From a virus: DNA of 30,670 nt. This document shows positions 1 to 18,800 of this stretch, piece by piece. A program made the translations under genes and the position numbers. The first letter of the stretch is position 1; each line of letters starts with the position of its first letter. The stretch spans positions 1-30,670 of IMG/VR virus record IMGVR_UViG_3300025120_000314; one strand, written 5' to 3'. Under the pieces are notes generated by a model that worked only from the letters and a program-made list of their open reading frames with translations, had not been told where the DNA came from and did no database searches.

Positions 1-1
1 A

Positions 2-192: not shown

Positions 193-205
193 AGGAGATA
201 TATAA

Positions 206-244: not shown

Positions 245-423
245 CATACATAATAGTTCAGATAGAAAATCCTATGGACTTAGAGAGTATGTCTATACTA
301 CCAGATGAAAATGATCTAAAAGTTAAACAATTTATTAATCAAGAAGATGCTGTTAGGTTTTTAGATAAGCATGGTATGCTCGAAGAACTTGAGTATGATG
401 CAAAGATTGTGAGGTTACATTGA
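241..423 (+). CDS. small hypothetical protein (60 aa)
   Basis: I place the start at ATG 241 because it overlaps the stop of the preceding mini-ORF as ATGA. A longer reading from TTG 211 is possible but has poorer ribosome-binding-site spacing. The product begins MTYIIVQIENP and is mildly acidic, with an N-terminal beta-like stretch and a helix-prone middle; the segment EDAVRFLDKHG looks like an amphipathic helix. No family is recognised. The stop overlaps the TTG start of the SleB-type hydrolase gene, so both are probably translated from one message. Confidence 0.55.
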   Translation: MTYIIVQIENPMDLESMSILPDENDLKVKQFINQEDAVRFLDKHGMLEELEYDAKIVRLH

Positions 424-911: not shown

Positions 912-920
912 GAGTATACT
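892..920 (+). promoter_or_regulatory. sigma70-type promoter candidate
   Basis: TTGACA (892-897), 17 bases, then TATACT (915-920), one mismatch from consensus. It straddles the end of the SleB gene. Predicted initiation near 927 would be just inside the 922 ORF, so transcripts would mainly serve genes from 1064 onward, including primase and polymerase. Confidence 0.5.
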
Positions 921-921
921 A

Positions 922-1071
922 ATGTATAATAAAGAATTAGATAAAGTAATACGTACTAAAACAGATCCACTTCATAAGCATATCGAAATACTTAAGAAAA
1001 GAATAGAAGAGTTAGAAGAAACTAATAAAAAAATAAAAGGTACAACTAAATGGGTAGAGGACAATGACTGA
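922..1071 (+). CDS. small charged helical protein (49 aa)
   Basis: The ATG at 922 follows AGGAG (910-914) at good spacing. The 49-residue product is Lys/Glu-rich, and the middle (residues about 20-37, HIEILKKRIEELEETNKK) is a strong amphipathic coiled-coil-like helix. It ends WVEDND. Its stop overlaps the ATG of the next gene. It resembles no family I can name; a short coiled-coil of this kind could bind a phage or host protein. It fits the compact early-gene organisation. Confidence 0.55.
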   Translation: MYNKELDKVIRTKTDPLHKHIEILKKRIEELEETNKKIKGTTKWVEDND

Positions 1072-1246
1072 AAACTTATGGGAACGAGAGAGGAAAGATT
1101 TATATTACTCTAAAATTAAAGAGTACCAAGAAGAAGGCTATGATCTACCAGAGTCTAAGTCTCTAGCTAAGAAAGAAGTAGGTGAGATCATGAAGGATAG
1201 GGAAAGTTTTGTATCACAGATATGGAATAGCTCTTATGAAGAATAA
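1064..1246 (+). CDS. small hypothetical protein (60 aa)
   Basis: The 60-residue product begins MTENLWERERKDLYYSKIKE and is highly charged and probably all helical. The start ATG overlaps the previous stop by 8 bases, and the end overlaps the next gene, so it belongs to a run of coupled small early genes before the primase. No domain is recognised. Small proteins in this position are often phage takeover or accessory factors, but nothing in the sequence shows that here. Confidence 0.55.
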   Translation: MTENLWERERKDLYYSKIKEYQEEGYDLPESKSLAKKEVGEIMKDRESFVSQIWNSSYEE

Positions 1247-1403
1247 AAAATGGGAATTAATTCTTGAGAAAGATTTAGGTAAGATTGGTATTGAAACCTT
1301 TAACAGTAAGGAGCAAGCAGAAGAAGAGCGAGACAATAGGAATAGACTTTGTGTTGCTATGTGTTGTTCTCCTGATATTAATTACATAATAAAAGAGGTG
1401 TAG
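1236..1403 (+). CDS. small hypothetical protein (55 aa)
   Basis: I choose ATG 1236 (MKNKKWELILE), which overlaps the end of the upstream gene, rather than the in-frame TTG 1209. The product is 55 residues, with a basic N-terminus, a helical SKEQAEEERDNRNR stretch and a late Cys pair (AMCCSPD). I do not recognise it. The stop at 1403 is one base before the primase-helicase ATG, so it is probably co-translated with that gene. Confidence 0.5.
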   Translation: MKNKKWELILEKDLGKIGIETFNSKEQAEEERDNRNRLCVAMCCSPDINYIIKEV

Positions 1404-1404
1404 T

Positions 1405-4666: not shown

Positions 4667-5136
4667 TGACACATAACAATAGAAGATTTGATAAGAAATC
4701 ATATGAAGCTAATGATGCTAGAGCTAAGAAAGCTATGGTAAATTACTTAACACTTCATAACTTTACTGATATTGTAGATAAAGAAGATTATTATTTTGAT
4801 GTCTCAGCTAATAAGAAAGACCAAAAGTTTTTCTTTGAGGTTGAGATTAAAAATCAATGGGGTTCTAATTGGAATCCTTCTTGGGAGGAGGTACGTATTC
4901 CTCAACGTAAACAAAGATTGATCAATAGAAAGGAGAAAGATTACCCAGACCATGAACTATATTTTGTTATCTTTAATACAGATTGTACTCAGGCTTGGTT
5001 CATTAAAGATAAAACTGTAGATGAATCGAGTGTAGGTACTATACAAAACTCTACTAGAATAGGTGAGCCACATCTAAAAGAACCTTTCTTTCATATACCT
5101 ATAGACAAAGCTAAAAAAATTCAAATTAGTTGTTGA
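4666..5136 (+). CDS. predicted PD-(D/E)XK-type small nuclease
   Basis: This 156-residue protein has a pattern typical of the restriction-endonuclease fold: Asp45 in YYFDVS, then FEVEIK with Glu60 and Lys62 as the (D/E)xK pair, then an alpha/beta tail (LYFVIFN, AWFI). A VRIPQRKQRL segment follows the core, like the basic helix after the catalytic strand in several such enzymes. It directly follows polymerase, overlapping its stop, so a role in DNA processing such as branch resolution (the job of T7 endonuclease I) or host DNA degradation is plausible. I cannot show homology to T7 gp3. The fold assignment rests on motif spacing only. Confidence 0.5.
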   Translation: MTHNNRRFDKKSYEANDARAKKAMVNYLTLHNFTDIVDKEDYYFDVSANKKDQKFFFEVEIKNQWGSNWNPSWEEVRIPQRKQRLINRKEKDYPDHELYFVIFNTDCTQAWFIKDKTVDESSVGTIQNSTRIGEPHLKEPFFHIPIDKAKKIQISC

Positions 5137-5161
5137 CCTATAGAAATATGTGTGGTATAAT
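5133..5161 (+). promoter_or_regulatory. sigma70-type promoter before the SSB gene
   Basis: TTGACC (5133-5138), a 17-base spacer, then a perfect TATAAT (5156-5161). It lies in one of the few real intergenic gaps of this strand, 62 bases before the SSB start, leaving about 55 bases of 5' leader. Only one base differs from the full host consensus. Confidence 0.75.
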
Positions 5162-5222
5162 TACGTTCTAATTAATTTAAACTCATGTCACAATAGAGTG
5201 ACGATAGAAAAAGGAAATAGAA

Positions 5223-5696
5223 ATGAATGATCCAATATATGTTACAGGTAAATGCCATTACGCTTCTCTCGTAGAGCCTAACACTAAGTTCGAGCCAGTG
5301 TGGTCAATTCAAATTGAAGTAGATGATACCAACCGTCCAGTGATTGAAGGTGCTGGACTTACAATCTCTAACAAAGGTGATGATCGTGGAGACTTTGTTA
5401 CTATTAAACGTAAGGTAGCTAGAGCAGATGGTACTAAGAAACAAGGACCAATAGTAAAAGACTCTCAGAATAATGACTGGGATGGTAAGTTGATTGCTAA
5501 TGGTAGTACTGTTAATGTTAAGGCTATCCCATTTGAGTGGAGTTATGCTGGGAAGTCAGGTATATCTGCTGACTTAGCTGCTGTACAAGTAGTAGACTTT
5601 ATTGAGTACAGTGGTGGCACAGGTACTGACTTTGATGTTGTTCCTGGTGGCTATGTAACCCCAATAGTTGAAGAAGATATTCCTTTCGCCTCTTAA
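5223..5696 (+). CDS. single-stranded DNA-binding protein, T7 gp2.5-like
   Basis: This 157-residue protein has an OB-fold-like N-terminal part, the diagnostic FDVVPGGYV segment near residue 138, and an acidic C-terminal tail ending EEDIPFAS. Such tails in SSB proteins recruit polymerase and helicase and regulate DNA binding. It coats single-stranded DNA at the fork and in recombination. It has its own promoter (5133-5161), a GGAAATAG ribosome-site region before the ATG and a strong terminator just downstream, so it is probably made at high level on a short transcript separate from its neighbours. It sits next to PolA and the recombination genes. Confidence 0.85.
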   Translation: MNDPIYVTGKCHYASLVEPNTKFEPVWSIQIEVDDTNRPVIEGAGLTISNKGDDRGDFVTIKRKVARADGTKKQGPIVKDSQNNDWDGKLIANGSTVNVKAIPFEWSYAGKSGISADLAAVQVVDFIEYSGGTGTDFDVVPGGYVTPIVEEDIPFAS

Positions 5697-5714
5697 TTTA
5701 AACTAAGGGAGACT

Positions 5715-5755
5715 TGGGGGTAGAGATTGTGTGTGGTTTCTACCCCTATTTTTTT
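5715..5755 (+). terminator. intrinsic terminator after the SSB gene
   Basis: GGGGTAGA (5717-5724) pairs perfectly with TCTACCCC (5739-5746). One A-T and one G-T pair can extend the stem inward to 10 bp around a 10-base loop. A run of seven T (5749-5755) follows. This is a textbook rho-independent terminator that isolates the SSB transcript. Confidence 0.85.
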
Positions 5756-5774
5756 AAAATAGGAGATAAACTAA

Positions 5775-6089
5775 ATGAAAAATCAAACTTCATCATATCC
5801 TTATTATCCGGGATTTAAAGATAAGGAAGGTACTACCTCTGCTGAAGCTGCTGAATTAATAGCACCAGACAGTAAAACAATTAGAGAGAAAGTCTTTAAT
5901 ATTATCAAACAGAAAAAAACTTTTGGTGCAACTGCTGATGAAGCAGCAGAGTTATTAAACTCAAGTCGTTTCACAGTTAGACCAAGAGTTACGGAATTAT
6001 ATAAACAAGGTAAGATAGAAAGAACAGTTACAAGAAAAAATGATAGTTCTAGAAATGCTTATGTTTATATAGTTAAGGAACAATTATGA
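5775..6089 (+). CDS. winged helix-turn-helix DNA-binding protein (104 aa)
   Basis: After a flexible N-terminus rich in Tyr, Pro and Ser (residues 1-20), residues about 35-100 form a winged-helix pattern: GATADEAAELLNSSRFTVRP gives the recognition helices, RVTELYKQGKIER the next helix, and the tail ends in a beta wing (AYVYIVKE). This resembles the small HTH proteins found beside exonuclease genes in many phages. AGGAG precedes the ATG, and the stop overlaps the exonuclease start. It may regulate the downstream genes or guide a DNA enzyme; the sequence does not tell which. It is the first gene after the terminator and has no recognisable promoter of its own. Confidence 0.7.
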   Translation: MKNQTSSYPYYPGFKDKEGTTSAEAAELIAPDSKTIREKVFNIIKQKKTFGATADEAAELLNSSRFTVRPRVTELYKQGKIERTVTRKNDSSRNAYVYIVKEQL

Positions 6090-6946
6090 AAACAATAGAT
6101 ACATTAGTTAAAGACATATACGATTTGTTTTCTCTTGATCCAATTAAAATGGATGAGCAGGAAGTAGATAAACATATTGATACCTTTGGTGAGATGCTTA
6201 AGGTACACATCAAAGCGTTCATGTACGAAGAGCCTCGTACTAGGGGAAATCTTAGACTATCTGCAATAGGTAAACCTGATCGACAGTTATGGTATGATGT
6301 CAATAGTAAGAAAGATATTGAAGACCTACCACCTAGTACACGTATTAAGTTTCTATATGGTTATATCTTAGAAGAACTTCTTCTACTATGTGCCTCTATT
6401 GCAGGTCATAAGGTTACCGATCAACAGAAAGAAGTTAGTGTTGAAGGTGTCTTAGGGCATCAAGATGCTATGATAGATGATATCTTAGTTGATTGTAAGA
6501 GTGCATCAGGCTTTAGCTTCAAGAAGTTTAAAGATAATAAGTTACTTGAAGATGATCCCTTTGGCTATATAGGACAGATCTCTGCCTATGCTCAAGCTAA
6601 CGGTGTCAATGAAGCAGCATTCTTAGTGATAGATAAATCAAGTGGGGAGATATGTCTTACCCCTGTACATCAGATGGAGATGGACAATGCTAAAAACAGA
6701 GTCAAGCATCTTAAAGGAATGGTTAGGCATACTAGTGTTCCTGATAAGTGTTATTCTCCAGTACCTGATGGTGAGTCTGGTAATCTTAAGCTTGCTATTG
6801 GTTGTATTTATTGTAATCATAAGCGAGAGTGTTGGTCTGATGCTAATCAAGGGAAAGGATTACGTGCATTTAAATATGCCAGAGGTCTTAACTACTTGGT
6901 TAAAGTATCTAAGGAACCTAAAGTTGAAGAGGTAGTTAACTGGTAA
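6086..6946 (+). CDS. PD-(D/E)XK exonuclease, Cas4/AddB-like with C-terminal cysteine cluster
   Basis: This 286-residue nuclease resembles RecB/Cas4-family exonucleases. The active site is readable: Glu96/97 in YILEELLL, GHQD (His125, Asp127), VDCKS (Asp136-x-Lys138) and the QISAY motif (Gln164, Tyr168). C-terminally Cys240-x2-Cys243-x5-Cys249 has the spacing of the Cas4 and AddB iron-sulfur 'staple', with Cys222 just upstream. The usual early Cys of Cas4 appears replaced (SAIGKPDRQLWY, Asp at the expected site), so Cys222 may be the fourth ligand. Its likely role is degradation of host DNA or DNA end processing and recombination, filling the place of T7 gp6. It overlaps the HTH gene before it and touches the GIY-YIG gene after it. 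Confidence 0.8.
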   Translation: MKTIDTLVKDIYDLFSLDPIKMDEQEVDKHIDTFGEMLKVHIKAFMYEEPRTRGNLRLSAIGKPDRQLWYDVNSKKDIEDLPPSTRIKFLYGYILEELLLLCASIAGHKVTDQQKEVSVEGVLGHQDAMIDDILVDCKSASGFSFKKFKDNKLLEDDPFGYIGQISAYAQANGVNEAAFLVIDKSSGEICLTPVHQMEMDNAKNRVKHLKGMVRHTSVPDKCYSPVPDGESGNLKLAIGCIYCNHKRECWSDANQGKGLRAFKYARGLNYLVKVSKEPKVEEVVNW

Positions 6947-7341
6947 TGCATTGGAAATATAGTACTAAGCCTAACCTAACTAAGTTTGGTTTTGTTTATT
7001 GCATAACTAATATTAAAACCAGGCAAGCTTATATAGGTTGTAAACAATACTTTAATTATAAAAAAGGTAAGAAGAAAGCTGAGTCTAATTGGAAGTCTTA
7101 CATGGGGTCTAGTAAACATTTACTTGAAGACATAGATAAATTAGGTAAAGATAATTTTAAATTTGAAATGATAGCTGAGTTTAAAAACAAACGAAGCTTG
7201 CGTTACTACGAGTGTTACTATCAAATGAAACATAATGTTTTATGTAGTACACTCGAAGGAACTGACTCACCTGCATACTATAATAACTATGTAGGTGGTA
7301 AGTTCTATAGGCCAGTGGAAGAATATTATGATAGAGAGTGA
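6946..7341 (+). CDS. GIY-YIG-like nuclease domain protein
   Basis: The 131-residue product carries a variant GIY-YIG core: GFVYCI at 15-20 and AYIGCKQ at 28-34. A WKSYMGSS segment and RYYECYYQ follow, with Glu89 in the place of the metal-binding Glu. Many phages carry such stand-alone domains, either as free-standing homing endonucleases or as recombination nucleases. No DNA-binding NUMOD-type tail is visible, and the gene does not interrupt another gene. It starts at the exonuclease stop (TAATG), which argues for integration in the recombination operon more than for recent mobility. Confidence 0.7.
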   Translation: MHWKYSTKPNLTKFGFVYCITNIKTRQAYIGCKQYFNYKKGKKKAESNWKSYMGSSKHLLEDIDKLGKDNFKFEMIAEFKNKRSLRYYECYYQMKHNVLCSTLEGTDSPAYYNNYVGGKFYRPVEEYYDRE

Positions 7342-7675
7342 TGACTTATATGATTTAAGTGCAGATGTTACAGTTAGTTCTTTATACGATTTAACAGATA
7401 AAAATGGACACCAATCTTTATACGTTTCTGTTGTCCTTCAAGCCCTGTTAGATCTTACTAAGCCGTTAAGTAAGAGCGAAGATAGCTCAGTTCAAGTATA
7501 TAGAGATCAAGCACAGTCATGGATCTTTAAAGAAGTTGGTGTTACTTGTGAAGACTTTGAAGAAGTATGTTTCTATGCAGGATTAGAACCTAGATTGATA
7601 AGAAAGTTTGCTTATAATGTAATTAACTCAGAGGATATAAGTGATGTCAGAAGAAATTTCCAAGCCTTACTCTAA
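7328..7675 (+). CDS. conserved-looking phage protein of unknown function
   Basis: I start at ATG 7328, which overlaps the GIY-YIG gene end by 14 bases; an in-frame start at 7295 would overlap more. The 115-residue product is acidic at the N-terminus (MIESDDLYDLSADV). Its C-terminal half reads SWIFKEVGVTCEDFEEVC, then an AGLEPRLIRKFA helix. Proteins with an FxxVCxxAGxxPxxIR motif occur in other marine phages, but I know no function. Its position between recombination and nucleotide genes suggests an early or middle gene. Confidence 0.65.
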   Translation: MIESDDLYDLSADVTVSSLYDLTDKNGHQSLYVSVVLQALLDLTKPLSKSEDSSVQVYRDQAQSWIFKEVGVTCEDFEEVCFYAGLEPRLIRKFAYNVINSEDISDVRRNFQALL

Positions 7676-7883
7676 AGCTTTACATAATCAAGTAGGTGGT
7701 AGCCACTACACAGATTGTGGTATACAGCCAGTAGAATATATCCATGCGAATAAGCTTGACTACTGTGAAGGTAATGTGATAAAATATATAACTCGACATA
7801 GAACTAAAGGTCAAGGTAAAAAAGATATAGAAAAAGTTATACACTATGCACAACTAATCTTAGAATTAGATTATAATAATTAA
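7644..7883 (+). CDS. DUF3310 family protein
   Basis: The 79-residue product from ATG 7644 (a GTG lies one codon earlier) has the DUF3310 signature: NQVGGSHYTDCGIQPVEYI, then CEGNVIKYITRH and GKKDIEKVIHYAQLILEL. The family is widespread in phages and usually sits among nucleotide-metabolism genes; it is sometimes labelled nucleotide kinase, without strong proof. GAGG (7631-7634) gives a good ribosome site. Here it immediately precedes the ribonucleotide reductase, consistent with a role near dNTP supply. Confidence 0.85.
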   Translation: MSEEISKPYSKALHNQVGGSHYTDCGIQPVEYIHANKLDYCEGNVIKYITRHRTKGQGKKDIEKVIHYAQLILELDYNN

Positions 7884-7896
7884 AGGAATATTGTAA

Positions 7897-9588
7897 ATGG
7901 AAAATGAAGCACACTACGGTATGACACTCCCCATATCCGAAGAGATAGATTCAGTTAAGTATAGACAAACAGGTGAAGACTTCTATAGTAAAGTTGTACG
8001 TATAGCTGAGTCACTTAAAGATACACCTGACCACTTTGAAAACTTCAAGGATGCACTTAGGCATATGAGGTTCCTCCCTGCTGGTAGGGTACAGAATGCT
8101 ATGGGTGCAGCTAGACAAACAACTGCATATAATTGTTTTGTCAGTGGTACTATCGAAGATAGCATGGACTCTATCATGGGCAGAGCTACTGATGCGGCTG
8201 AGACAATGCGTAGAGGTGGTGGCATAGGCTATGACTTCAGTAGGCTACGTCCTAGAGGTGATCGTATCAAGTCCTTAGACTCTAGAGCATCAGGTGCAGT
8301 AAGCTTCATGCAAATCTATGATGCAGTATGTCAGACTATAGCCTCTAGTGGACACCGTAGAGGAGCACAGATGGGTGTACTTAGGATAGATCATCCAGAC
8401 ATAGAACAGTTTATCACAGCTAAGAACGATGGTACTTCTCTTACTGGTTTTAATATCTCAGTTGGCGTGACCGATGAGTTCATGCGATGCCTTAAAGATA
8501 AGAAGCCTTTCCCTCTACAGTTTGATGGCAAGGTACATGAGGAAGTAGATCCTGCTGCTCTATGGGATATGATCATGCGTAGCACATGGGATTGGGCAGA
8601 GCCGGGTGTGTTGTTCATTGATACTATCAACAAGATGAACAACCTCTACTACTGTGAGACTATCGAAGCGACTAACCCTTGTGGTGAGCAACCTCTGCCA
8701 CCTTACGGTGCTTGTCTTCTTGGTAGCTTTAATCTTACTAAGTATGTTAAGGAAGCAGAGTTTGACTTTACATTATTTACTGATGACATACAGCACGTAG
8801 TCAGAGCTATGGATAATGTTATTGATAGAACTATCTACCCTCTTGCTGAACAAGAGAAGGAGGCTAAGAACAAACGTAGGATGGGGCTAGGAATTACTGG
8901 CCTAGCTAATGCAGGTGAGATGTGCGGTAAGCCTTATGCTTCTACAGAGTTCATGAAGTTTACTACTAAAGTTCTTAAGATACTTAGAGACTATTCTTAT
9001 TCTGCAAGCTCCTCTTTAGCACAAGAGAAAGGTTCTTTCCCTATGTATAAACAAGATAAGTATATAGAGGGAGAGTTCTTTAAGACCTTATCACCTTGGG
9101 TACAAGATCAGATCAAGGAGCATGGTATACGTAACTCTCACCTAACTTCTATAGCACCTACAGGTACAATCAGTTTAACTGCTGACAACGTAAGCTCTGG
9201 TATCGAACCACCCTTCAGCCTCTTCTATGATAGAACTATACAAGAGTTTGATGGTCATCAGATACAGAGAGTAGAAGACTATGCTTATCAACACGGGGTG
9301 AATGGAAGAACTGCCAACGAAATTAGTGCAGACGAACATCTATCTGTACTATCCTTAGTATCTAAGTATATAGATAGTGCTGTGTCTAAGACCTGTAACG
9401 TAGGCAGTAATGTAAACTTTGATGAGTTCAAAGAGTTATACTTCAATGCTTGGAAGCAGGGCTGTAAAGGTATTACTACCTTCAGAGCAGACGGTAAACG
9501 ATACGGTATCTTAAACGAAGTCAAGGAAGAACCACAAGCAGAGGCTTGTTTCATTGACCCTAACACAGGACAAAAATCTTGTGAGTAA
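7897..9588 (+). CDS. nrdJ: class II (adenosylcobalamin-dependent) ribonucleotide reductase
   Basis: The 563-residue enzyme reduces ribonucleotides to deoxyribonucleotides using coenzyme B12. NPCGE at 260-264 holds the thiyl-radical Cys262 and Glu264. Cys80 and Cys273 form the expected redox pair; the 11-residue gap from Cys262 to Cys273 equals that of Cys408 to Cys419 in the Lactobacillus leichmannii enzyme. GLGITGLANAG and APTGTISLTADNVSSGIEP are further family motifs. No N-terminal ATP-cone is apparent, and no separate NrdB-like subunit gene is near. The tail ends C-x10-C-E (Cys551, Cys562), presumably the thioredoxin-reducible pair. It would supply dNTPs without oxygen or iron but needs host B12. 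It ends the operon; a strong promoter follows. Confidence 0.93.
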   Translation: MENEAHYGMTLPISEEIDSVKYRQTGEDFYSKVVRIAESLKDTPDHFENFKDALRHMRFLPAGRVQNAMGAARQTTAYNCFVSGTIEDSMDSIMGRATDAAETMRRGGGIGYDFSRLRPRGDRIKSLDSRASGAVSFMQIYDAVCQTIASSGHRRGAQMGVLRIDHPDIEQFITAKNDGTSLTGFNISVGVTDEFMRCLKDKKPFPLQFDGKVHEEVDPAALWDMIMRSTWDWAEPGVLFIDTINKMNNLYYCETIEATNPCGEQPLPPYGACLLGSFNLTKYVKEAEFDFTLFTDDIQHVVRAMDNVIDRTIYPLAEQEKEAKNKRRMGLGITGLANAGEMCGKPYASTEFMKFTTKVLKILRDYSYSASSSLAQEKGSFPMYKQDKYIEGEFFKTLSPWVQDQIKEHGIRNSHLTSIAPTGTISLTADNVSSGIEPPFSLFYDRTIQEFDGHQIQRVEDYAYQHGVNGRTANEISADEHLSVLSLVSKYIDSAVSKTCNVGSNVNFDEFKELYFNAWKQGCKGITTFRADGKRYGILNEVKEEPQAEACFIDPNTGQKSCE

Positions 9589-9596
9589 AAAAAACC

Positions 9597-9625
9597 TTGA
9601 CAATCTTTTAAATATGTAGTATAAT
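9597..9625 (+). promoter_or_regulatory. perfect consensus sigma70 promoter before the glycan block
   Basis: TTGACA (9597-9602), exactly 17 bases, TATAAT (9620-9625). Both hexamers are perfect consensus and the spacing is optimal. It lies in the 71-base gap between nrdJ and the glycosyltransferase gene, with a leader of about 28 bases containing AAAAAGGAAC as ribosome site. Confidence 0.85.
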
Positions 9626-9659
9626 AGTAAACAATTTATTTAGAAAAAGGAACATACTA

Positions 9660-10436
9660 ATGAGTATTAGTAAAGAGAAGAAAGTGAATACAGTTTTTAT
9701 AGGATATGATCCTAAAGAAAAGGTTGCAGCCCAAGTTCTAAAGTATTTAATTGAAGCTAACTCACCAAAGGATATTATAGTTAAGTTTCTACGTAAGGAT
9801 ATCTTAGAACATATGAATATGTTTAACAGACCTTATGAGATGGTTAACAATCAGATGATTGATTCAATAGATCAGAAGCCATTCTCTACTGAGTTCACCT
9901 TTACTCGCTTTCTAGTACCTGCTTTGATGCAGTATGAAGGGTGGGCATTGTTTATGGATTGTGATATGTATCCCAGAACAGATGTCAATGAGATATTTGA
10001 AGAATACAACGATGAGTTCTATCCTTTATACTGTGTTAAACATGAATATGAACCAGACGATAAGTTCAAGATGGACGGTAGAGAGCAGACTAGATACAAT
10101 AGAAAGAACTGGTCTAGCCTAATGCTGTGGAACTGTGGTCATGAATTAAACAAAAAGCTTACACCATTCATAGTTAATAATAAGACAGGTAATTACTTAC
10201 ATACATTTGGATGGTTACCTAATAAGAACAGTGCTATTGGTGGGATGACAGAGGATTGGAACTGGCTTGATGGTCACTCTGATCTTGATATAGATCCTAA
10301 GATGGTACACTTTACAACAGGTGGTCCTTGGTTTAAAGAATGGAAATGTAAGCGTGAGAAGGATGGCCTTATGGCAACAGAATGGAATGGTGATTATTCG
10401 CATTTAGTATTACATGGAAAAGTAGATGAATTATAA
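9660..10436 (+). CDS. glycosyltransferase (GT8-like, DxD motif)
   Basis: The 258-residue product begins VFIGYDPKEKVAAQVL, like the N-terminal nucleotide-sugar-binding strand of GT8-type retaining glycosyltransferases. TRFLVPALMQYEGWALFMDCDMYP contains the metal-binding DxD (Asp100-Cys-Asp102). SSLMLWNCGH and a WNWLDGH segment near the C-terminus match the acceptor and sugar-binding parts of that fold. It would transfer a sugar from an activated donor. It is the first gene after the perfect promoter and overlaps the large fusion gene by 11 bases, so donor or acceptor may be shared with that protein. The acceptor (host envelope glycan, virion protein or DNA) cannot be told from sequence. Confidence 0.75.
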   Translation: MSISKEKKVNTVFIGYDPKEKVAAQVLKYLIEANSPKDIIVKFLRKDILEHMNMFNRPYEMVNNQMIDSIDQKPFSTEFTFTRFLVPALMQYEGWALFMDCDMYPRTDVNEIFEEYNDEFYPLYCVKHEYEPDDKFKMDGREQTRYNRKNWSSLMLWNCGHELNKKLTPFIVNNKTGNYLHTFGWLPNKNSAIGGMTEDWNWLDGHSDLDIDPKMVHFTTGGPWFKEWKCKREKDGLMATEWNGDYSHLVLHGKVDEL

Positions 10437-12807
10437 AATAGTAACAGCCTTCAATGAGACACACCTACAGCATAGTACGTTTCATTTATTAAACGAGTTC
10501 AAAGAAAACTGGGAGCCAAGCATAGAGTTTCATTGTTACTACTACGATGTTGACCTAGCTAACTACTCTCTTCCAAAAGCTAAGAACATATTCTACCACA
10601 ACCTACTAGAGATGGAGGAGTTCACACAGTTTAGAAGTTCATTCCCTCAACACAATGGTACTGAGGGTGGAGCTATACCTTACAATGATATACTAGATGC
10701 ACAAAAGTATATGCCTAAAGTAATGGCACTTACTGAATGTGCATTTAATAACGCAGATAGCTGGTTACTATGGCTTGATCCTCTTACTATGAATACTAAA
10801 GACATATCACAAAAGACTTTAAGTGGTTTGTTTCCTGATCATTCTAATAACATTGACCTAATAACTATTAAAGATAGTCATTACTTTACTGCCTTTAATT
10901 TATCCAGGACAACACCTGTTGAATTACTAGGTGATCTACGTGGTGCTTACACATCAGGAGAGTTTTTAAACTACAGGGAATGGCATGATGTCTTTGTATT
11001 CAACAGGTTAAGAACTATCTATACTGCTCATGGTATGCACGTACATGAGTTTACAGAAGAGAACTCTCCTATTGGTGAGTTGCTTGTAGATATGGCAGAC
11101 AAGAAAAACTCTGCTCTTAGGGACAAAAAAGGTAAGCGTATCTTTGAGTTGTCAGAGACACAGACTACTGGTGATATACTTCCTAATAGATACAAGCAAC
11201 TTGCTGATCTTATACGTGCCTACAAGCCTAAGACAATACTAGAGACAGGTACTTGGAATGGTGGCAGAGCTATTGAGATGGCACTTGCTGCATTCAAGAA
11301 CAACGATGCTGTACATTACATAGGCTTTGATTTGTTTGAGGACGCTACTGTTCATACAGATCATGAAGAGTTTAATGTTAAGCCTCACAATACAATGGAA
11401 GCAGTAGAGAAAAGGTTCACTGAGTTTGCTGAACATATGAAGGAGAAAGAAAAGAAAACTTTTACCTACGAATTAACCAAGGGTAATGTTAGAGTTACTC
11501 TAGATAAGTTTGTTAAGACTGAGGCACTGAATGAAGTAGACTTTGCATTGATGGGTAGTGGTAACAGTATAGAGACTACCAAGATAGAATACCAAGCATT
11601 TAAAAATATTCCTATAGTTGTTGTTGATCATTTCTTTACTAAAGAAAGTGATGAAGATGAAACTATGCCACCTGAAAAATATCACGGAGCTAAGAATGTA
11701 TTTGATAGCGTCAAGACAAAGATGGTTGATACGAAAGAGGAGGATACGGAAGGCTGGACAATCTTTGAAGAGGAAGATAGTATACGCAAGTACATATTGC
11801 CGTCCCAAGATAAAGTGGCTGGGGGTGGGCATACTCATCTTGTTGTATTTCTTCATAACAGATTGCTTGATAACATTCCTAAAGACCTCAAAAGTGTGCC
11901 TATTATAGTACACCCTAGAGACTGTGTACCTAGAGATTATATTAATAACAACATCAAGAGTAACATGACCTTGATTGATCCTGCTAAATGGGTGACTAAG
12001 CATGACGCTCATAGGCAGACTGCTATCATGGTATCTGGTGGGCCTTATCTTGATTATGGTTTACTTAAAAAGTTTGTTAGTGATAACCCAGATGCTAAGA
12101 TGCTGGCAGTTAAACATGCTTACCCTCATTTAATGGAGCATGGTATTACACCTTGGGGTTGTATCTTACTAGACCCTAGACCTATTACTGGTGTGTCTAC
12201 CCATAACGTAGTACGTAAGGATTTGTTTAAGAACATAGATTTAAATACTAATTTCTTTCTTGCTTCTATGACTGATCCTTCTGTTACTAACTTTATGATT
12301 GATAAAAAAGTTAAGTTATTTGGGTGGCATGCTTTCACTGATTCTCTTAGGACAGAGAGTGAGCAAGGACATCAGATACAAAACCAACAGGTTAAGATAG
12401 ATGAAGCATTAGGCATACCTCAAGGTGCTACCATGATTACAGGTGGTACTTGTGCTGCAATGCGAGGCATTGGTATGCTACATACGATGGGCTTTAGAGA
12501 CATACATCTCTTTGGCTTTGATTGCTGTCGTGATGAACCTACTAAAGAAGAACTTACTGAGACTACAGGTGATGTAGAAGGTGGAGAAGTACCGAAGCCT
12601 AAGTACATGCAAGTAACTGTCAATGAGAAAGAGTACTGGACTACAGGTGAGCTACTAGCTATGGCACAAGACTGTGAGAAAGTATTCTGTGATGATGGTC
12701 TTGAAAACTCCTTGACATTTCATGGTAAAGATACTATGGTAGCAGACTTATGGGACATCTCTCAGAAAAAGAAAACAAAACCAGCATTTGAAGGATATTA
12801 CAAATGA
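10426..12807 (+). CDS. three-domain fusion: GT-like / SAM methyltransferase / Maf-DUF115-like
   Basis: The 793-residue protein appears to join three enzyme-like parts. Residues 1-220 resemble a glycosyltransferase fold but carry LWLDPLT (Asp118) where a DxD would be expected. Residues about 255-400 form a class I methyltransferase-like domain with the SAM loop ILETGTWNGG (271-280) and an acidic strand GFDLFED. Residues about 480-790 match the Maf/DUF115 (MptE-like) family: IMVSGGPYLD (Ser537-Gly-Gly-Pro), then AVKHAYPHLMEHGITP and HLFGFD (694-699). In bacteria Maf proteins add nonulosonic acids to flagellin. It lies between a glycosyltransferase and a methyltransferase gene and overlaps both. 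A glycan-building or decorating role is inferred. Confidence 0.75.
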   Translation: MNYKIVTAFNETHLQHSTFHLLNEFKENWEPSIEFHCYYYDVDLANYSLPKAKNIFYHNLLEMEEFTQFRSSFPQHNGTEGGAIPYNDILDAQKYMPKVMALTECAFNNADSWLLWLDPLTMNTKDISQKTLSGLFPDHSNNIDLITIKDSHYFTAFNLSRTTPVELLGDLRGAYTSGEFLNYREWHDVFVFNRLRTIYTAHGMHVHEFTEENSPIGELLVDMADKKNSALRDKKGKRIFELSETQTTGDILPNRYKQLADLIRAYKPKTILETGTWNGGRAIEMALAAFKNNDAVHYIGFDLFEDATVHTDHEEFNVKPHNTMEAVEKRFTEFAEHMKEKEKKTFTYELTKGNVRVTLDKFVKTEALNEVDFALMGSGNSIETTKIEYQAFKNIPIVVVDHFFTKESDEDETMPPEKYHGAKNVFDSVKTKMVDTKEEDTEGWTIFEEEDSIRKYILPSQDKVAGGGHTHLVVFLHNRLLDNIPKDLKSVPIIVHPRDCVPRDYINNNIKSNMTLIDPAKWVTKHDAHRQTAIMVSGGPYLDYGLLKKFVSDNPDAKMLAVKHAYPHLMEHGITPWGCILLDPRPITGVSTHNVVRKDLFKNIDLNTNFFLASMTDPSVTNFMIDKKVKLFGWHAFTDSLRTESEQGHQIQNQQVKIDEALGIPQGATMITGGTCAAMRGIGMLHTMGFRDIHLFGFDCCRDEPTKEELTETTGDVEGGEVPKPKYMQVTVNEKEYWTTGELLAMAQDCEKVFCDDGLENSLTFHGKDTMVADLWDISQKKKTKPAFEGYYK

Positions 12808-13481
12808 TAACCTGTGATACAAAGTTAAGTAGAAAGAAACCTTCTAAGAGGTACAAAGAATTACTAAAAGAATATGTTAAGATGCATTCTTCTGCTGAAG
12901 GTATGTTCGATGGTAAGAGTTTGATTAAGTTTATCTACATCATTGATAACTTCTTGAAGAGTAATAAATGTAAAACTCTGCTAGACTATGGTGCTGGTAA
13001 AGGTACTCTCTATACTGAGAACTATACTAAGTTTATCCCTAAGTTAGGTAAACCTCTACGAGAGTATTGGGATTTAGATGTAGCAGATCGTTATGAACCT
13101 GCACTACCTGAGTTCAATGTACTACCTGATAAGAACTATGATGCTGTTGTATGTACTGATGTACTTGAGCATGTACCTGAGAGTGATCTAGGATGGGTAG
13201 CAGATGAGCTACTTAGTCGTGCAGATAAGATGCTTTTTCTAAACATAGCTTGTTATCCTGCACTAAAGAAGTTTGCTGATGGAACTAACGTACATATATC
13301 AGTCTTCAATCCTGTTGATTGGTTAGAGTTCTTTACTGCTAAGATAAAAGATTACTCAGGGCTATCCATATATCTTTTCTTTGATGTTATGAATGAGAAT
13401 AATAAAGCAGTTACTCTGGAGGGATTTAAGATAGATTATAAACCAAGAGTAATACAACTACAACAACAGGAGGAAACATAA
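12804..13481 (+). CDS. class I SAM-dependent methyltransferase
   Basis: The 225-residue product has the SAM-binding motif I LLDYGAGKGT (59-68), an acidic DLDVAD after it and motif IV-like AVVCTDVLEHVPE near residue 119, typical of small-molecule, sugar or ubiquinone-type methyltransferases. No DNA-methylase (D/N)PPY motif is present. It overlaps the fusion gene by 4 bases (ATGA) and its stop touches the holin start. With its neighbours it probably methylates a sugar or lipid-linked acceptor. The C-terminus is Gln-rich (QLQQQEET), perhaps because it overlaps the holin ribosome site (AGGAGGAAAC). Confidence 0.8.
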   Translation: MITCDTKLSRKKPSKRYKELLKEYVKMHSSAEGMFDGKSLIKFIYIIDNFLKSNKCKTLLDYGAGKGTLYTENYTKFIPKLGKPLREYWDLDVADRYEPALPEFNVLPDKNYDAVVCTDVLEHVPESDLGWVADELLSRADKMLFLNIACYPALKKFADGTNVHISVFNPVDWLEFFTAKIKDYSGLSIYLFFDVMNENNKAVTLEGFKIDYKPRVIQLQQQEET

Positions 13482-13888
13482 TGTTAGGTATAGCTGAGTC
13501 AGTAATAGGAGTAGCAGGTAAAGTCCTTGATAAGTTTGTCGAGGACAAAGACCTTAAGACTAAGTTAGCAGCAGAGCTTAAGACACAGATGGTGTCATTA
13601 GACCTAGCTCAAGCACAAGCTAACATAGAGCAAGCTAAGCATCCCTCTATCTTTGTTGCAGGTTCTAGGCCAGCTATCATGTGGATCTGTGCCTTTGCTC
13701 TAGGCTGGCAGTTTATCTTTGCTCCTATCATATCATGGGGTCTAGTGATATGGTATCCTATCGTAGAATTACCTAGCTTGCAGACAGCAGAGCTTACGTC
13801 ACTAGTGATGGCTCTCTTAGGACTAGGTGGTATGAGAAGCTTTGAGAAGTCTAAAGGTGTCCAACGGAATAACATGAACAAGCGATGA
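13481..13888 (+). CDS. holin, GTA-type 3TM family
   Basis: The 135-residue product begins with an amphipathic region (MLGIAESVIGVAGKVLDKFV) and a charged stretch. SRPAIMW, a hydrophobic ALGWQFIFAPIISWGLVIWYP and a C-terminal LVMALLGLGGMRSFEK follow. The RP...W...P and LGLGGxRxxEK signatures match the 'holin of 3 TMs' family known from gene transfer agents and alphaproteobacterial phages. It would open the inner membrane at lysis and let hydrolases reach peptidoglycan. It sits apart from both cell-wall hydrolase genes. A strong AGGAGG ribosome site precedes it. The family match also favours an alphaproteobacterial host. Confidence 0.85.
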   Translation: MLGIAESVIGVAGKVLDKFVEDKDLKTKLAAELKTQMVSLDLAQAQANIEQAKHPSIFVAGSRPAIMWICAFALGWQFIFAPIISWGLVIWYPIVELPSLQTAELTSLVMALLGLGGMRSFEKSKGVQRNNMNKR

Positions 13889-13980
13889 GTAGAATATATA
13901 AAAGATTAAAGGTTTGCTTTAATGTGTGGTGTAAAACTTCTTATAAATCTTGGATAAAGGCTGGAAGACACGATGATTAA
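13885..13980 (+). CDS. very small basic ORF (31 aa)
   Basis: An ATG overlapping the holin stop (ATGA) opens a 31-residue frame beginning MSRIYKRLKVCFNVW, and its end overlaps the next gene's ATG by 8 bases. The peptide is strongly basic with two Cys. Chaining of start and stop overlaps with both neighbours is the main argument for it. It closes what would otherwise be an 84-base gap. No function is assigned; it could be a lysis accessory peptide or chance. Confidence 0.4.
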   Translation: MSRIYKRLKVCFNVWCKTSYKSWIKAGRHDD

Positions 13981-14296
13981 TTTAACTGATAGTGCTGACA
14001 TACATCTATCCTCAGTTATCAATGAGAATGCTGGCATGTTTACAGACATTAGGTTGTCTGTTACTAGTGGTGGTTGCTCTGGTTTCAACTACGATTGGCA
14101 GTTAACTAGCTCAGAAGGAGTAGGTGATCATGTTATTAATCTTGATTCAGGTAGACTCTTTATTGATTCTGTCTCCCTCTTATACCTTGAGGGTATGACT
14201 ATAGATTATAAGAAGGATATCTTTGGTCAGAGATTAATGATAGACAATCCTAATGTTAAATCCACATGTGGTTGTGGTGAAAGTTTTCAAGTCTGA
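13973..14296 (+). CDS. A-type iron-sulfur cluster carrier (IscA/ErpA/HesB-like)
   Basis: The 107-residue product matches the HesB/IscA family over its whole length, and all three cluster-ligand cysteines are present: Cys35 in SGGCSGFNY, and Cys99 and Cys101 in STCGCGESF. Proteins of this family accept [2Fe-2S] or [4Fe-4S] clusters from the host assembly machinery and deliver them to client enzymes. No other Fe-S assembly genes (IscS, IscU, SufB) are nearby, so it would plug into host machinery. A possible phage-encoded client is the exonuclease at 6086 with its C-terminal cysteine cluster. It is followed without a gap by a small membrane protein. Confidence 0.9.
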   Translation: MINLTDSADIHLSSVINENAGMFTDIRLSVTSGGCSGFNYDWQLTSSEGVGDHVINLDSGRLFIDSVSLLYLEGMTIDYKKDIFGQRLMIDNPNVKSTCGCGESFQV

Positions 14297-14553
14297 TGTC
14301 AAACCTAATTGAGAAGATGTCACCAACCCATACTTTTGATTGGTATCTTAAATGGATAGCTTCAGTCTTACTAGTATCTGGTGTTATCTTAACAAGTAAT
14401 AATATCTTCCCTCTTAATTTATTCTTTCATGCTGGTGGTATGCTTGGGTGGCTTGTTGTTTCTATCCTATGGAATGACAGAGCATTGCTTGTTGTTAATG
14501 CTGTATCACTAGCCCTCTTAATCAATGGATTGATAGCTCACTATGTTAAATGA
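14296..14553 (+). CDS. small membrane protein with about three TM helices (DUF6552-like)
   Basis: The 85-residue product has a polar N-terminus (SPTHTFDWYLKW) and three hydrophobic segments: roughly residues 20-35, 42-59 and 62-82. The GWLVVSILWNDRALLVVN pattern resembles a small phage and bacterial family I believe is catalogued as DUF6552; the name is from memory. It starts at the stop of the Fe-S carrier and overlaps the terminase small subunit by 11 bases. No enzymatic motif is visible. It could help holin function, alter the host membrane or work with the Fe-S protein; order alone does not decide. Confidence 0.65.
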   Translation: MSNLIEKMSPTHTFDWYLKWIASVLLVSGVILTSNNIFPLNLFFHAGGMLGWLVVSILWNDRALLVVNAVSLALLINGLIAHYVK

Positions 14554-15085
14554 AAAACAAGAAAAGTTTGCACAGTCTTATGTGCTACATAACAATGCTA
14601 CTGAAGCAGCTAAGTCAGCAGGTTATGCAGCAGCATCAGCAGCTAACCAAGGCTATAGACTTCTCCAAGTAAGTGAGATTGCAGAACGTATACGTATACT
14701 TGAACTAGAACTGGAGACTAATGTAGATGTCATTGATGAACTGGAAAGTCAGTACGCATTTGCCAAACAAAATGGACACACTAATAGTGCAATCAAAGCT
14801 CTTGAGTTACTGTCTAGAGTACGTGGTGCTAACTCTGATGTTAATCCTAATCTAGATTCGGAGACACTTGAAGGTGCAATCGTAGGATGTCTTAATGTTT
14901 TAGGTGAAGATGTAGTAATAGGCATGTTAGCTAAGTGTGACTTCGCAGATAGCCTGTTTTCAGAGGAAGATCTAGAAAATATAGGGACAGAGAGCGTCAT
15001 AGAGAGCATTACAGAGGATTCTCTGGACCCTACCTACCCAGAAGACACTACTTCTACTGTAACAGGCTTAGAAGAGAACACATAG
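14543..15085 (+). CDS. terminase small subunit
   Basis: The 180-residue product opens NEKQEKFAQSYVLHNNATEA, followed by AKSAGYA and an IAERIRILE helix: the terminase_2 (small subunit) pattern, a helix-turn-helix that recognises viral DNA before packaging. Residues about 70-100 form an oligomerisation-type helix (NSAIKALELLSRVRG). The C-terminus is long, acidic and Ser/Thr/Glu-rich, as is common for these proteins. It is the last + strand gene. The large subunit is not adjacent and is absent from the window, which is unusual because the two are normally neighbours. Transcription from the opposite strand begins to converge 7 bases later. Confidence 0.85.
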   Translation: MLNEKQEKFAQSYVLHNNATEAAKSAGYAAASAANQGYRLLQVSEIAERIRILELELETNVDVIDELESQYAFAKQNGHTNSAIKALELLSRVRGANSDVNPNLDSETLEGAIVGCLNVLGEDVVIGMLAKCDFADSLFSEEDLENIGTESVIESITEDSLDPTYPEDTTSTVTGLEENT

Positions 15086-15104
15086 CATTTAGCTATTTAT
15101 AGCT
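15082..15104. other. overlapping short inverted repeats at the convergent junction
   Basis: ATAGC (15082-15086) pairs with GCTAT (15092-15096), and AGCTAT (15091-15096) pairs with ATAGCT (15099-15104), so two mutually exclusive hairpins are possible. There is no T-run of terminator quality on either strand. They span the 7-base gap between the two stop codons. Confidence 0.3.
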
Positions 15105-15470
15105 CCATACCCACGGTCTTGGGTGTGTCTCACTGTTCTCCATCGTATCAAGGTGTATGAATCTCTTCTCATGCTGCCCTCTTTGGGACACACCTATGCC
15201 ACTGAAGCCATACTGGATAGCTAACTTGATTAGACGGTAGGCTTTCTTACCACTGATGATTACATCAACTGCTTTACCAAATAAATGTGGAGAGTTCTTA
15301 GCTCCACCGATAACTTGATTGTAAGATAGATCTCTATAGGCAGAAGATATAATCATAGGCTCATTAAACTCTTGTCTTAGTGCCTCTAATGTAAGCATGA
15401 ATTGCTCGTCCATACAGCACTCATCTGTACCCTTACACTTTAGTTCATCTTCTGTGAAGTATTGCCACAT
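15093..15470 (-). CDS. peptidase M15-type cell wall peptidase
   Basis: The 125-residue product is the Zn-dependent M15A-type peptidase fold, which cuts peptide bonds in peptidoglycan (D-Ala-D-Ala or L-Ala-D-Glu type). Zinc ligands visible are His62 and Asp69 in SPHLFGKAVDV (H-x6-D) and His106 with Asp108 in FIHLD. SSAYRDLSYN is the conserved region before them. No signal peptide is seen, so it needs the holin or acts as a virion-associated enzyme. It is the last gene of the structural transcript and overlaps the stop of the gene before it (TAATG). With the SleB protein, the phage carries two different wall-cutting activities, encoded on opposite strands. Confidence 0.88.
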   Translation of the reverse strand: MWQYFTEDELKCKGTDECCMDEQFMLTLEALRQEFNEPMIISSAYRDLSYNQVIGGAKNSPHLFGKAVDVIISGKKAYRLIKLAIQYGFSGIGVSQRGQHEKRFIHLDTMENSETHPRPWVWSYK

Positions 15471-15826
15471 TATTTTGCTTCCTTTGTTGTTGGTGGATGT
15501 TTTCCATTGTGCATAGATACCATACGGTTCATGCGTTCTTCTAACATTCTTATACGTTCTTCATTCCTACCATCTCGCTCACTCTGAGTCTTCAGAATCT
15601 GTGGTGATAAGATATCCTGACTAATAATCTTTATACTATTCTGTAAGACTGCTTGAGTAGCTTCTTGATTGTCTACCTGCTGATAGATCTTAGTCACATC
15701 ACTCTTGATGTCATCGACCTGACCTACGATAGACTTGATGGTGGCCTTGAGTACACCCCATGTGGCTGCTAATCCTGCTAACACAGTTCCTAGTGTGAGC
15801 AGTTCTCTTGGACCTAGCTCTAACAT
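15470..15826 (-). CDS. membrane-anchored coiled-coil protein, spanin-like candidate
   Basis: The 118-residue product has a hydrophobic segment at about 9-29 (LLTLGTVLAGLAATW) followed by a long heptad-like region (VDDIKSDVTKIYQQVDNQE, then RNEERIRMLEERMNRM) and a short polar tail. One N-terminal TM helix plus a periplasmic coiled coil just before a peptidase gene resembles an inner-membrane spanin or similar lysis accessory. Small virion-associated membrane proteins can look alike. No lipoprotein partner is embedded or adjacent. The call rests on topology and position, not on a sequence family. Confidence 0.5.
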   Translation of the reverse strand: MLELGPRELLTLGTVLAGLAATWGVLKATIKSIVGQVDDIKSDVTKIYQQVDNQEATQAVLQNSIKIISQDILSPQILKTQSERDGRNEERIRMLEERMNRMVSMHNGKHPPTTKEAK

Positions 15827-15832
15827 TTCTTG

Positions 15833-18800
15833 TTAATCCTTAACTTCTAGTTCTTCTGGTACATCTTCAGATAATGATTTAGCTTCGTATCTACTTTCTA
15901 TATCTCTAAATAGTTTCATTAAACTTTGCATATCTACATTATCTCTATTTGATTTTCGTATTCTTGCTCTAAGTTTTTTATCTTGAGATAATTTTTTACC
16001 GCTAGATGGTTTATATTTATTACTCATGAGAAATCTAACACCTTGTTTACTTAAAGATCCTGTAGCTTGCTTATCGTTAAGCATCATTTTACTAAGTTCT
16101 CTTGGACTCATAAATCTACCATAACTAATTACTAAATCAGCAATTTGTTTTGTAGCTGCAAATTCTTCAGATAACATTTCATCATACTCTTTTGCTATAG
16201 CTTTATAATCAATAGTTAATTCTGAATCTGTTAGCATATTACTTATGTCTTCCTTACTAGATTGAAAATCTCTATCAGAATTTTTTAATAAAGTTCGTGT
16301 AGTAAAAGTAAAATTCTTTTTAGGATTAAATTCTCTTTCTTTAGAAGCAAAAGACCAAGGAGCTAATACAACAGGCGCACCAGTTTTAGGATCATAAGTA
16401 TTATAATTAAAGTTTGGTCCTAGTCTAGCTAAGAAATCAGCAACATCTCCTGTATCAGAAAATCTTTTTCTTTTCTCATCAAAATATCTAGGGTTCATAG
16501 CCCTTTGTATGTCATCAGATACAATATCCAAATTTGTGCCAGCTTCTCTAGCCATTTGTAGCAAACCAGGTTCTGCTATTTTATAATATTTAATTAATGC
16601 ATCTGCTGTTGCATCATCATCTCCTGTGTTAAGAGACATTGAAGCATCAAATAACTGCCTACCTGCTTCTAAAGCCATTGATGGATCTAAGAAAGCACCT
16701 GCTTGTTTAGTAGCAATTCCAATCATAGTTTTAGCTAAATTTTTTGATAAGTCTTCTCCGTTAGCAGCGGCTACCATGAATGGCATAACAAAATCAATAG
16801 CAAATTGATCTGGATTATTATAACTTAAGTCAGTGTAATAATATTTATCTTTATCTTTTTTAGTATCACCTTTACGAATAGCAAGTGCATGATTTTTAGA
16901 CCAAGGAGATCCAGCTTCTCTTAATGCTGGAGTAACATTAGATGTTCCTTCTATTGCATTATAAGTATGAGCAGCAACAGAAGGAGCAGAAGCTATGATT
17001 GCTTGACTAAGAAGTCTATTCTTACCTGCTTTAATAAGTTGTTTATTATTAGTTAGAATACCTTCCTGTATTTCTTCTCCAGCTATTTTAAATAAATGAT
17101 ATTTATTTCTTAAGTTCTCTGCTGGAAAAGCAGTAAAAGATCCAAGCACAGGAAACCCTCGCATCTTCTCTAGTACTTTAGGTATACGAGAATAAACAGG
17201 AAGAAGATTCATAGTCTTTTGTACTGCTGCTTCGTCTAATAATTTATTTTCAAAGTTTTTAGCGTTAAAACTTTTACCTGTCATAGGTTCATTAAAATTT
17301 TCAGAAAACTTTTTCTTTAATAAATCTTTTTGTTCTACTGATCTAGCATTCCAAATACTTTCTGCTCTTTTTCTTTCTCTTAAAAACGTAGCTATCTTAC
17401 CTAAGTCATCAGTTGCTACATAAGCTGTTTGTGCAGCTTTAGATATTGCTCTACCTACCTGAAGTTTTTTACCTTTACCTAAAGGTATAGCAAGTTTTTC
17501 TAATGCTGGCATACCTAAAGTAGCTATATTTGTTATAGCATTTGAAGCGGTTTTATTATTAACTTTATTTAAATCTCCAATACGAGTCATGATTTGATTA
17601 ATATCTACTTGACTTCCTTTAAGACCTAACTTACCTACAGCTTCGCTTACTTCTTTTCTTCTAGCAGGATTAGACAATAGTTTTATGCCATCATATAAAC
17701 CTCTAAAATTACCTGAACCTATTGTATACTGTACTGCACCAAGAGCATTACGAGCATGAGCATTAGGATTATAAACTGTCTTACCTTTTTTTAGATAGCC
17801 TTGTATACCAGCAAGAGTATCACCTATGTCTCCTAATATAGTTTTATTAAACTGCATTTCTTTAGGAAGTCTACCATCAAAACCTTCTGATAATTCTTTT
17901 AGTATAGAAGCTTGATCTTTAGTAACAAATATTTTTGTTAATTCAGGATCAATTAATTTTTCTTTAAAAATAAAAGGAGATCTTTTCTCTACTGCTTCAG
18001 GAGATTTAATTTTCATTTGTGTCACTAAAGAAACCATATCTTGTTCAGGAAGACCTGTTTGTTTAGCATGAAGTCTAGATGCCTCAACACTATTGTCTGC
18101 TTTAATAGCTAACTTTCTACTTAAGAGACTATCAGCTAAAGAAGAACCTAATCTAATTCTATTAGAAGAATCAATAACACCTTTAGCAGTTTCTAATGCC
18201 CTTACAGCAGGATTAAAATTCAAACCAAATATTCTTTTAATCACATCAGGAATATTTTTTTTCTTTAATAATGCTCCACCTCTAGCCGATCTTTCTGTAG
18301 TAGGTAGATATAATTCTTTAACAAGTTTTGATACCATAGTTACTTTATCTTTTTCTGTTTTAAATTTAGGCTTACCAGCTTTATTAAATAATCCAGACTC
18401 TACTCCTAACCCTTTCTTATCTTTAGTAACAGCTTCAAATACTTCATCAACTATATTTTTATTTTCAGGCCGTTGCATAAAAGAATTAAAGTCTGGTCTA
18501 TCTACTCCTTCAAATCTTTCATATATATCTCTAACATAAGGAGTATTCTTTTTAGGTTTATATACTCCTCTAACTTGTTTACTTAAATAAGAAGCCCCCA
18601 TAGCTGTTTCTTGTGCTTGCTCAATAAACCCTCTCCAATCTTTAAGAATTGTTTCCATTTCAGGATCTATCTTTTTAACTTTAGCTAGTGATCCTTTTTG
18701 ACCTTCCATAGCAGCATTAATTAATTTAGTTCCTTCATCATTATTAAATTTAGCTTTAATTCTATCATCCATTTTTAATGATAATTTTTCTACAGCTTCT

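Follow-up and report, generated by a model that had tools for sequence, protein, structure and literature searches.

A three-gene cassette of uncultured marine phages encodes a fusion of glycosyltransferase-like, methyltransferase-like and Maf-like domains and may act on virion proteins

INTRODUCTION

Glycosyltransferases and methyltransferases are common in phages, and a viral enzyme that combines three transferases is already known. This enzyme, A064R of the chlorovirus PBCV-1, a giant algal virus, has three proven domains, glycosyltransferase (GT), GT and methyltransferase (MT), and together with the separate methyltransferase A061L it completes the capsid glycan (PMC9614988). In bacteria, Maf proteins glycosylate flagellin within the cytoplasm (PMC4065374, PMC11339370). 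In the Magnetospirillum protein, DUF115 is preceded by a degenerate N-terminal Rossmann domain that has weak methyltransferase similarity (PMC11339370). Here, we describe a cassette of three overlapping genes in a 30.7-kb linear virus record, a podovirus-like fragment (IMG/VR record IMGVR_UViG_3300025120_000314; the whole stretch of 30,670 nucleotides is called the window below). The cassette encodes a predicted glycosyltransferase (GTa), a protein with three domains (FUS; domains N, M, and C), and a predicted methyltransferase (MTb), and we compare it with these systems and with phage relatives of its parts.

RESULTS

The three-domain fusion is a conserved reading frame

The initial annotation of the window described three coupled genes at 9660-13481 behind a perfect promoter, and this was confirmed by the open reading frames (ORFs), their overlaps, and a 12/12 promoter match (Table 1). 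GTa and FUS overlap by 11 nt, FUS and MTb by 4 nt, and MTb and the holin gene that follows by 1 nt (TAATG, 13479-13483), and the holin probably belongs to the same operon. With the FUS protein alone as query, 28 loci were recovered, most of them full length and 61-100% identical, and with an alignment as query, 153 loci in IMG/VR were found to encode FUS relatives; the 80 of these that were retained are nearly all full length, at 60-88% identity. A search of viral records for the same domain order, which had been suggested as a check, yielded 92 unique ORFs in which N, M, and C are all present. Because the long FUS frame is conserved in the 28 contigs and the 153 IMG/VR loci, it is neither a chance frame nor a false join, and the sequencing or assembly error that the initial annotation had named as a possible refutation is ruled out. 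Frameshift-like splits occur in a few contigs (L056, L089, and L134).

The three genes also stay together with overlapping frames, as the order GTa, N+M+C, MTb was read with domain profiles in 151/214 loci, most of the others being cut by contig ends. Median ratios of nonsynonymous to synonymous substitution (dN/dS) were 0.07 for N, 0.08 for M, 0.09 for C, 0.07 for GTa, and 0.11 for MTb, rough values with synonymous sites close to saturation, and such low ratios in every domain indicate that N, M, and C are each maintained.

Furthest from the other members are L215 (46%), which is a phage contig within a metagenome-assembled genome of Sneathiella, and L155 (46% in C), where GTa and the fusion occur with no MTb adjoining. 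No copy besides this phage contig was found in 190 genomes of the class around the Sneathiella genome; in a class-wide sample, PF01973, the DUF115 family, was present in 37/289 genomes, mostly in Maf-sized proteins. FUS had no match in isolate phages at E 1e-5. The phage group carrying the cassette is widespread, marine, uncultured, and undescribed. A search of PHROGs with FUS gave nothing useful, and anti-phage defence models gave no match. The sole PDB sequence matches of the FUS and C profiles, to asparaginase, were judged to be chance.

The C domain is Maf-like

The AlphaFold model of FUS, built with 39 sequences, has a predicted local distance difference test score of 75 and a predicted template modelling score (pTM) of 0.42, so that the folds of single domains are usable and the packing between them is not. 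Within this limit, AlphaFold together with Foldseek/VIA-align supported each of the three folds proposed in the initial annotation (GT, S-adenosylmethionine [SAM] methyltransferase, and Maf/DUF115), with domain limits near those first suggested (N, ~1-236; M, ~237-466; C, ~467-793).

For C, the window protein scored 47.4 bits against PF01973 (cut-off 34.6), and all 39 members matched this family at E values up to 0.05. Modelled alone, C reached a pTM of 0.75, and its best match was the central MAF_flag10 domain of the Maf protein 5mu5 (E 8.9e-7, Z 16.3, 216 residues aligned, root mean square deviation [rmsd] 4.3), above the HPPK (MptE) fold of 8sd5 (Z 13.4, 192 aligned, rmsd 4.1). SteA, thiamine pyrophosphokinases, and mammalian sialyltransferases were weaker matches (Z 7-11). 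Profile comparison by hhalign gave an E value of 3e-7 against bacterial Maf proteins, one of which matches 5mu5 at E 3e-81. The C model spans residues 244-503 of 5mu5, where the phage protein ends; the C-terminal helical, chaperone-like domain of Maf is absent, and no further domain past C was found in any full-length copy. The window protein did not match the NCBIfam PseD/Maf equivalog models, to which L155 and L215 match far under the cut-off.

Since Maf itself has a methyltransferase-like Rossmann domain before DUF115, it is plausible from the models that M and C form a Maf-like unit to which an N-terminal GT-A domain was added. Model residues 241-777 can be laid over 5mu5 36-502 (353 aligned), with a poor rmsd of 15, and the sequence profiles align only over 525-704. 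The triple fusion of the initial annotation stands as far as the three folds go, and what was really gained may be only the GT domain at the N-terminus.

The N and M domains have altered motifs, and GTa retains its DxD

The fold of N matched 2p72/2p73, the PBCV-1 A64R glycosyltransferase for the major capsid protein (Z 14.4, 171 residues, rmsd 3.1). The initial annotation had read LDP instead of DxD, which is correct for the window protein (residues 117-119); the site has become D-P-L there, and the second Asp is gone. Among the 92 unique copies, the site is D-x-D in 23 (L084 and L097 among them) and D-P-L/M/S/T, E-P-L, or another form otherwise, states that require 3 changes on the tree. As the DxD is intact both in the outermost copy, L155, and in Mosig_00189, a stand-alone N homologue of Pelagibacter phage Mosig, the simplest account is that it was lost in the window's lineage from a DxD-bearing GT-A family.

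M matched SafC, COMT, TomG, and the rhamnose O-methyltransferase CalS11 in fold (Z 14-15), and Pfam Methyltransf_24 was found in 26/39 members at E values up to 0.05, the window protein being only under the cut-off. Metal-dependent O-methyltransferases are expected to carry a DGGH...DD motif. The SAM motif of M, LETGTWNGGRA, hardly varies, but the metal/base motif (DGxH ... DD) is gone in 91/92 copies, which have G-G-N and DH or DN, and only L155 keeps it. The SAM methyltransferase fold first assigned to M is supported; the loss of the metal/base motif had been overlooked. Judging from these motif states, N and M could each be altered or catalytically inactive.

The reading of GTa as a DxD glycosyltransferase held up against PHROGs (Table 1); the match to Pfam Glyco_transf_8 (E 0.012) was under the cut-off. 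D100 and D102 are invariant in 32/32 aligned homologues, and its homologues in phages carry glycosyl- or nucleotide-sugar transferase annotations. With both Asp residues of the DxD kept, unlike the altered motifs of N and M, GTa is the glycosyltransferase of the cassette that can most confidently be taken as active. In three relatives of one subclade (L114 [L114:2898-4574], L207, and L211), GTa is immediately preceded by another GTa-like gene, and the tandem genes share 41-42% identity in L114 and L211. MTb as a second methyltransferase is likewise supported by PHROGs, with a Pfam methyltransferase match under the cut-off (E 4.6e-5).

Relatives of the parts in other phages

Outside the window's family, parts of the cassette occur as separate genes. 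In Pelagibacter phage Mosig, GTa lies beside the stand-alone N homologue, and genes for FkbM-type methyltransferases and a sulfotransferase are close by. GTa and MTb are adjacent in Caulobacter phage C1, where they share the stretch from the tail fibre genes to the lysozyme gene with a GT9 gene and one that is weakly MptE-like; gp164 of C1 gave nothing against the N domain. Stenotrophomonas phage DLP_6 combines GTa with two relatives of MTb and a gene of the GT29 sialyltransferase type, MTb and GTa are flanked by capsid and phage stabilization genes in MW202512, and the head module of Tetraselmis virus S20 includes a relative of MTb and another weakly MptE-like gene. The MptE-like genes of C1 (gp162) and S20 match Pfam under the cut-off (E 4e-5 and 0.002, respectively), neither scored significantly against the C profile, and we treat both as leads only.

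The closest C homologue found in cell genomes (L249:9244-10053, 268 amino acids; hhalign E 9e-17) belongs to an alphaproteobacterial prophage, where it sits between terminase (Pfam E 5e-5) and portal (PF12236, E 5e-131) genes. Next to this DUF115 gene, and likewise between terminase and portal, the prophage (L249:4650-14185) has two sulfotransferases and a tetratricopeptide repeat/fucosyltransferase-like gene. By analogy, the neighbours of the separate parts point to virion or surface glycans.

Gene order and promoter of the window

The genes of the window run from primase/helicase, family A polymerase, Cas4-type exonuclease, and ribonucleotide reductase (RNR) through the cassette to holin, an Fe-S protein, the terminase small subunit, and converging structural genes. 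The primase is closest to that of Pelagibacter phage HTVC115P (49%), and one tail protein is closest to those of phage DSL-LC04 and HTVC023P-type Pelagibacter phages (33%). The 12/12 promoter was present upstream of GTa in 19/114 relatives versus 21/2000 random 250-nt windows, an approximate count, as the relatives share ancestry and a few rows were mis-sliced near contig ends.

Table 1 Features of the cassette and its surroundings in the window
Feature	Position	Strand	Evidence
Promoter, sigma-70 type, TTGACA-17-TATAAT	9597..9625	+	12/12 match; sole such match in 1-16000
GTa, GT8-like glycosyltransferase, 258 amino acids, DxD intact (MDCDMY, D100/D102)	9660..10436	+	phrog_28018, E 1e-47
FUS, three-domain protein, 793 amino acids	10426..12807	+	every domain under purifying selection
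FUS N domain, residues 1-236, GT-A fold, DxD reduced to D-P-L	10426..11133	+	fold match 2p72; stand-alone homologue Mosig_00189
FUS M domain, residues 237-466, class I SAM O-methyltransferase fold	11134..11823	+	fold matches; SAM motif kept, DGGH/DD lost
FUS C domain, residues 467-793, Maf/DUF115 (PF01973)	11824..12804	+	Pfam over cut-off; fold; hhalign
MTb, second SAM methyltransferase, Methyltransf_23-like, 225 amino acids	12804..13481	+	phrog_24759 methyltransferase, E 1.9e-16
Holin	13481..13888	+	GTA_holin_3TM, E 7e-11; phrog holin, E 4e-26

Some further observations concern the neighbouring genes. Upstream of the cassette, two RNR types occur in otherwise syntenic genomes (the window, L001, L002, L084, etc.), which suggests gene replacement at one site: the RNR of the window (7897-9588) has 563 amino acids, and most others have a longer type with ~25% identity. 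In L215, an Hsp20 small heat-shock gene (L215:6723-7151; PF00011, E 7.5e-17) lies between RNR and GTa. A HesB/IscA-like Fe-S cluster biosynthesis gene (13973-14296; PF01521, E 1.7e-18) is located in the lysis/packaging block of the window, and a similar gene is placed upstream of the polymerase in L215 instead. In the structural region, the gene at 27665-28546 has a Laminin-G/concanavalin-like domain (PF13385, E 8.5e-13), and its product is a possible glycan-binding particle protein.

DISCUSSION

We propose that the cassette is a phage glycan module that most likely acts on the phage's own virion proteins, a reading to which we give a probability of about 45%. As a glycan-building module in the cytoplasm, it would use GTa to add a sugar taken from a host nucleotide-sugar, and the Maf/DUF115 domain of FUS would transfer sugar to a protein or a protein-bound glycan. 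N, in a form that has changed in the window's lineage, would supply another GT-A unit, and M and MTb would O-methylate the glycan or help bind it. The likeliest acceptor would be a virion protein of the phage, and the likely product a small methylated sugar on the particle. This proposal is supported because GTa, FUS, and MTb are kept together under strong constraint, because N resembles a PBCV-1 capsid GT, C resembles Maf, and M resembles sugar and catechol O-methyltransferases, because a viral set of GT, GT, and MT plus separate MT is proven for A064R and A061L, and because the parts have relatives close to structural genes in MW202512, C1 (after tail fibre genes), S20, and the L249 prophage. 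A more specific form, in which a Maf-type protein glycosyltransferase with an A064R-like GT-A domain has been turned to glycosylating virion proteins with a methylated glycan, is a good deal more tentative; were it true, protein glycosylation of the Maf type would exist as a viral system and be common in the ocean.

Several points weigh against virion glycosylation. In the window's family, the cassette lies beside the holin and terminase small subunit genes. It is distant from the putative capsid genes and from the likely gene for the terminase large subunit (the latter and the head genes being assigned by eye alone), which makes the link to the virion one of analogy. N of the window lacks its DxD, M has lost its metal/base motif in nearly all copies, and no sugar-nucleotide pathway genes were found in 14 records, which are possibly incomplete. 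NeuB and CMP-sugar synthetase were among the genes missing from these records. Nothing supports the nonulosonic-acid role that the initial annotation mentioned for Maf proteins, although the host could supply the donor.

The main rival is that the cassette alters a host surface glycan (lipopolysaccharide, capsule, or flagellin) during infection and blocks superinfection or progeny loss on debris, with C acting in a Maf-like manner on host flagellin or a cytoplasmic glycan precursor. Cytoplasmic flagellin is the target of Maf enzymes (PMC4065374, PMC11339370), phage-encoded change of host capsule sugars is known, e.g., 8-epipseudaminic acid (PMC12053666), and the cassette is placed outside the structural modules. 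However, no membrane protein, flippase, or acetyltransferase accompanies it, its coupling to the holin suggests late expression, the flagellin-chaperone-like domain of Maf is missing, and stand-alone relatives of the parts tend to sit near virion genes. We therefore regard a host-surface target as rather unlikely and favour virion glycosylation; nothing was found that favours the superinfection block of the initial annotation over virion decoration. Glycosylation and methylation of phage DNA bases is very unlikely. Phages with glucosylated DNA, such as T4, encode glycosyltransferases, and an RNR gene precedes the cassette, but no member of the thymidylate synthase/dCMP hydroxymethylase family was found in the same 14 records, C has a Maf-like fold, and relatives of GTa accompany sulfotransferase, GT9, and GT29 genes. 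Least probable of all is that C is an MptE-type pterin pyrophosphokinase that alters the folate precursor pool, as had also been considered. Pfam names PF01973 after MptE and 8sd5 does match C, yet the Maf match is better and longer, the two most distant members point, far under the cut-off, to the flagellin modification model PseD, and the neighbours are glycosyl- and methyltransferases.

A different question is whether N and M are still enzymes. FUS could be a Maf-like transferase in which two dead or rebuilt domains bring GTa and MTb into place and serve as binding sites for donor, SAM product, or acceptor. The DxD is lost in 69/92 copies and the metal/base motif in nearly all, yet both domains are as constrained as C, and the N-terminal domain of Maf is itself a degenerate methyltransferase-like Rossmann fold (PMC11339370). 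Against this, the SAM motif is nearly invariant, a quarter of the copies (23/92) have an intact DxD, and metal-independent GT-A enzymes exist, 4ayj being among the fold matches, and we consider this alternative doubtful. As it concerns the mechanism of FUS and fits either target, the degrees of confidence given here need not sum to one.

Should the module act on virions, a large uncultured group of marine phages would use enzymes of its own to build glycoprotein particles, and the virion glycans could influence how these phages adsorb and how hosts and grazers recognise them. With a different domain set, the system would then parallel A064R, the viral three-transferase enzyme that is understood in most detail. 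Erosion of the DxD and metal motifs, alongside relatives in which they are intact, provides a natural series on how a catalytic domain changes its role inside a fused enzyme.

The fusion architecture is already in a public entry, A0A6J7X5Q0 of an uncultured Caudovirales phage (714 amino acids), which Foldseek aligned over nearly the whole fusion (E 8e-57, 27% identity); the entry is uncharacterised and named after one domain. In the open-access literature searched, mostly as abstracts, we found no description of this architecture, no phage-encoded MptE/DUF115 or Maf protein, and, in agreement with the initial annotation, no characterised phage system with this fusion. In C1, DLP_6, MW202512, and Mosig, GTa homologues adjoin MTb or N homologues as separate genes, with no full fusion, and the MptE-like/DUF115 gene of L249, the closest C homologue found beyond the family, lies in a phage glycan cassette and differs in being stand-alone.

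Compared with bacterial Maf (5mu5, PseD), FUS shares the fold and Pfam family of C, and M may correspond to the methyltransferase-like Rossmann domain that lies ahead of DUF115 in Maf (PMC11339370). It differs in its extra N-terminal GT-A domain, in the SAM motif retained by M, in the missing C-terminal helical domain, and in its phage context, where no flagellar or nonulosonic-acid genes were found. The nearest functional precedent is A064R. That enzyme comes from a eukaryotic virus with N-glycans, and its similarity to FUS N is one of fold, without demonstrated sequence homology; its domain order is GT-GT-MT rather than GT-MT-Maf, its domain 2 is a GT family of its own and not Maf, and it has the DxD that is lost in N of the window. 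FUS N is nonetheless closest in fold to domain 1 of A064R (2p72/2p73), and A064R with A061L, like FUS with MTb, joins three transferase-type domains in one viral protein, there two GT-type domains and one methyltransferase domain, with a separate methyltransferase (PMC9614988).

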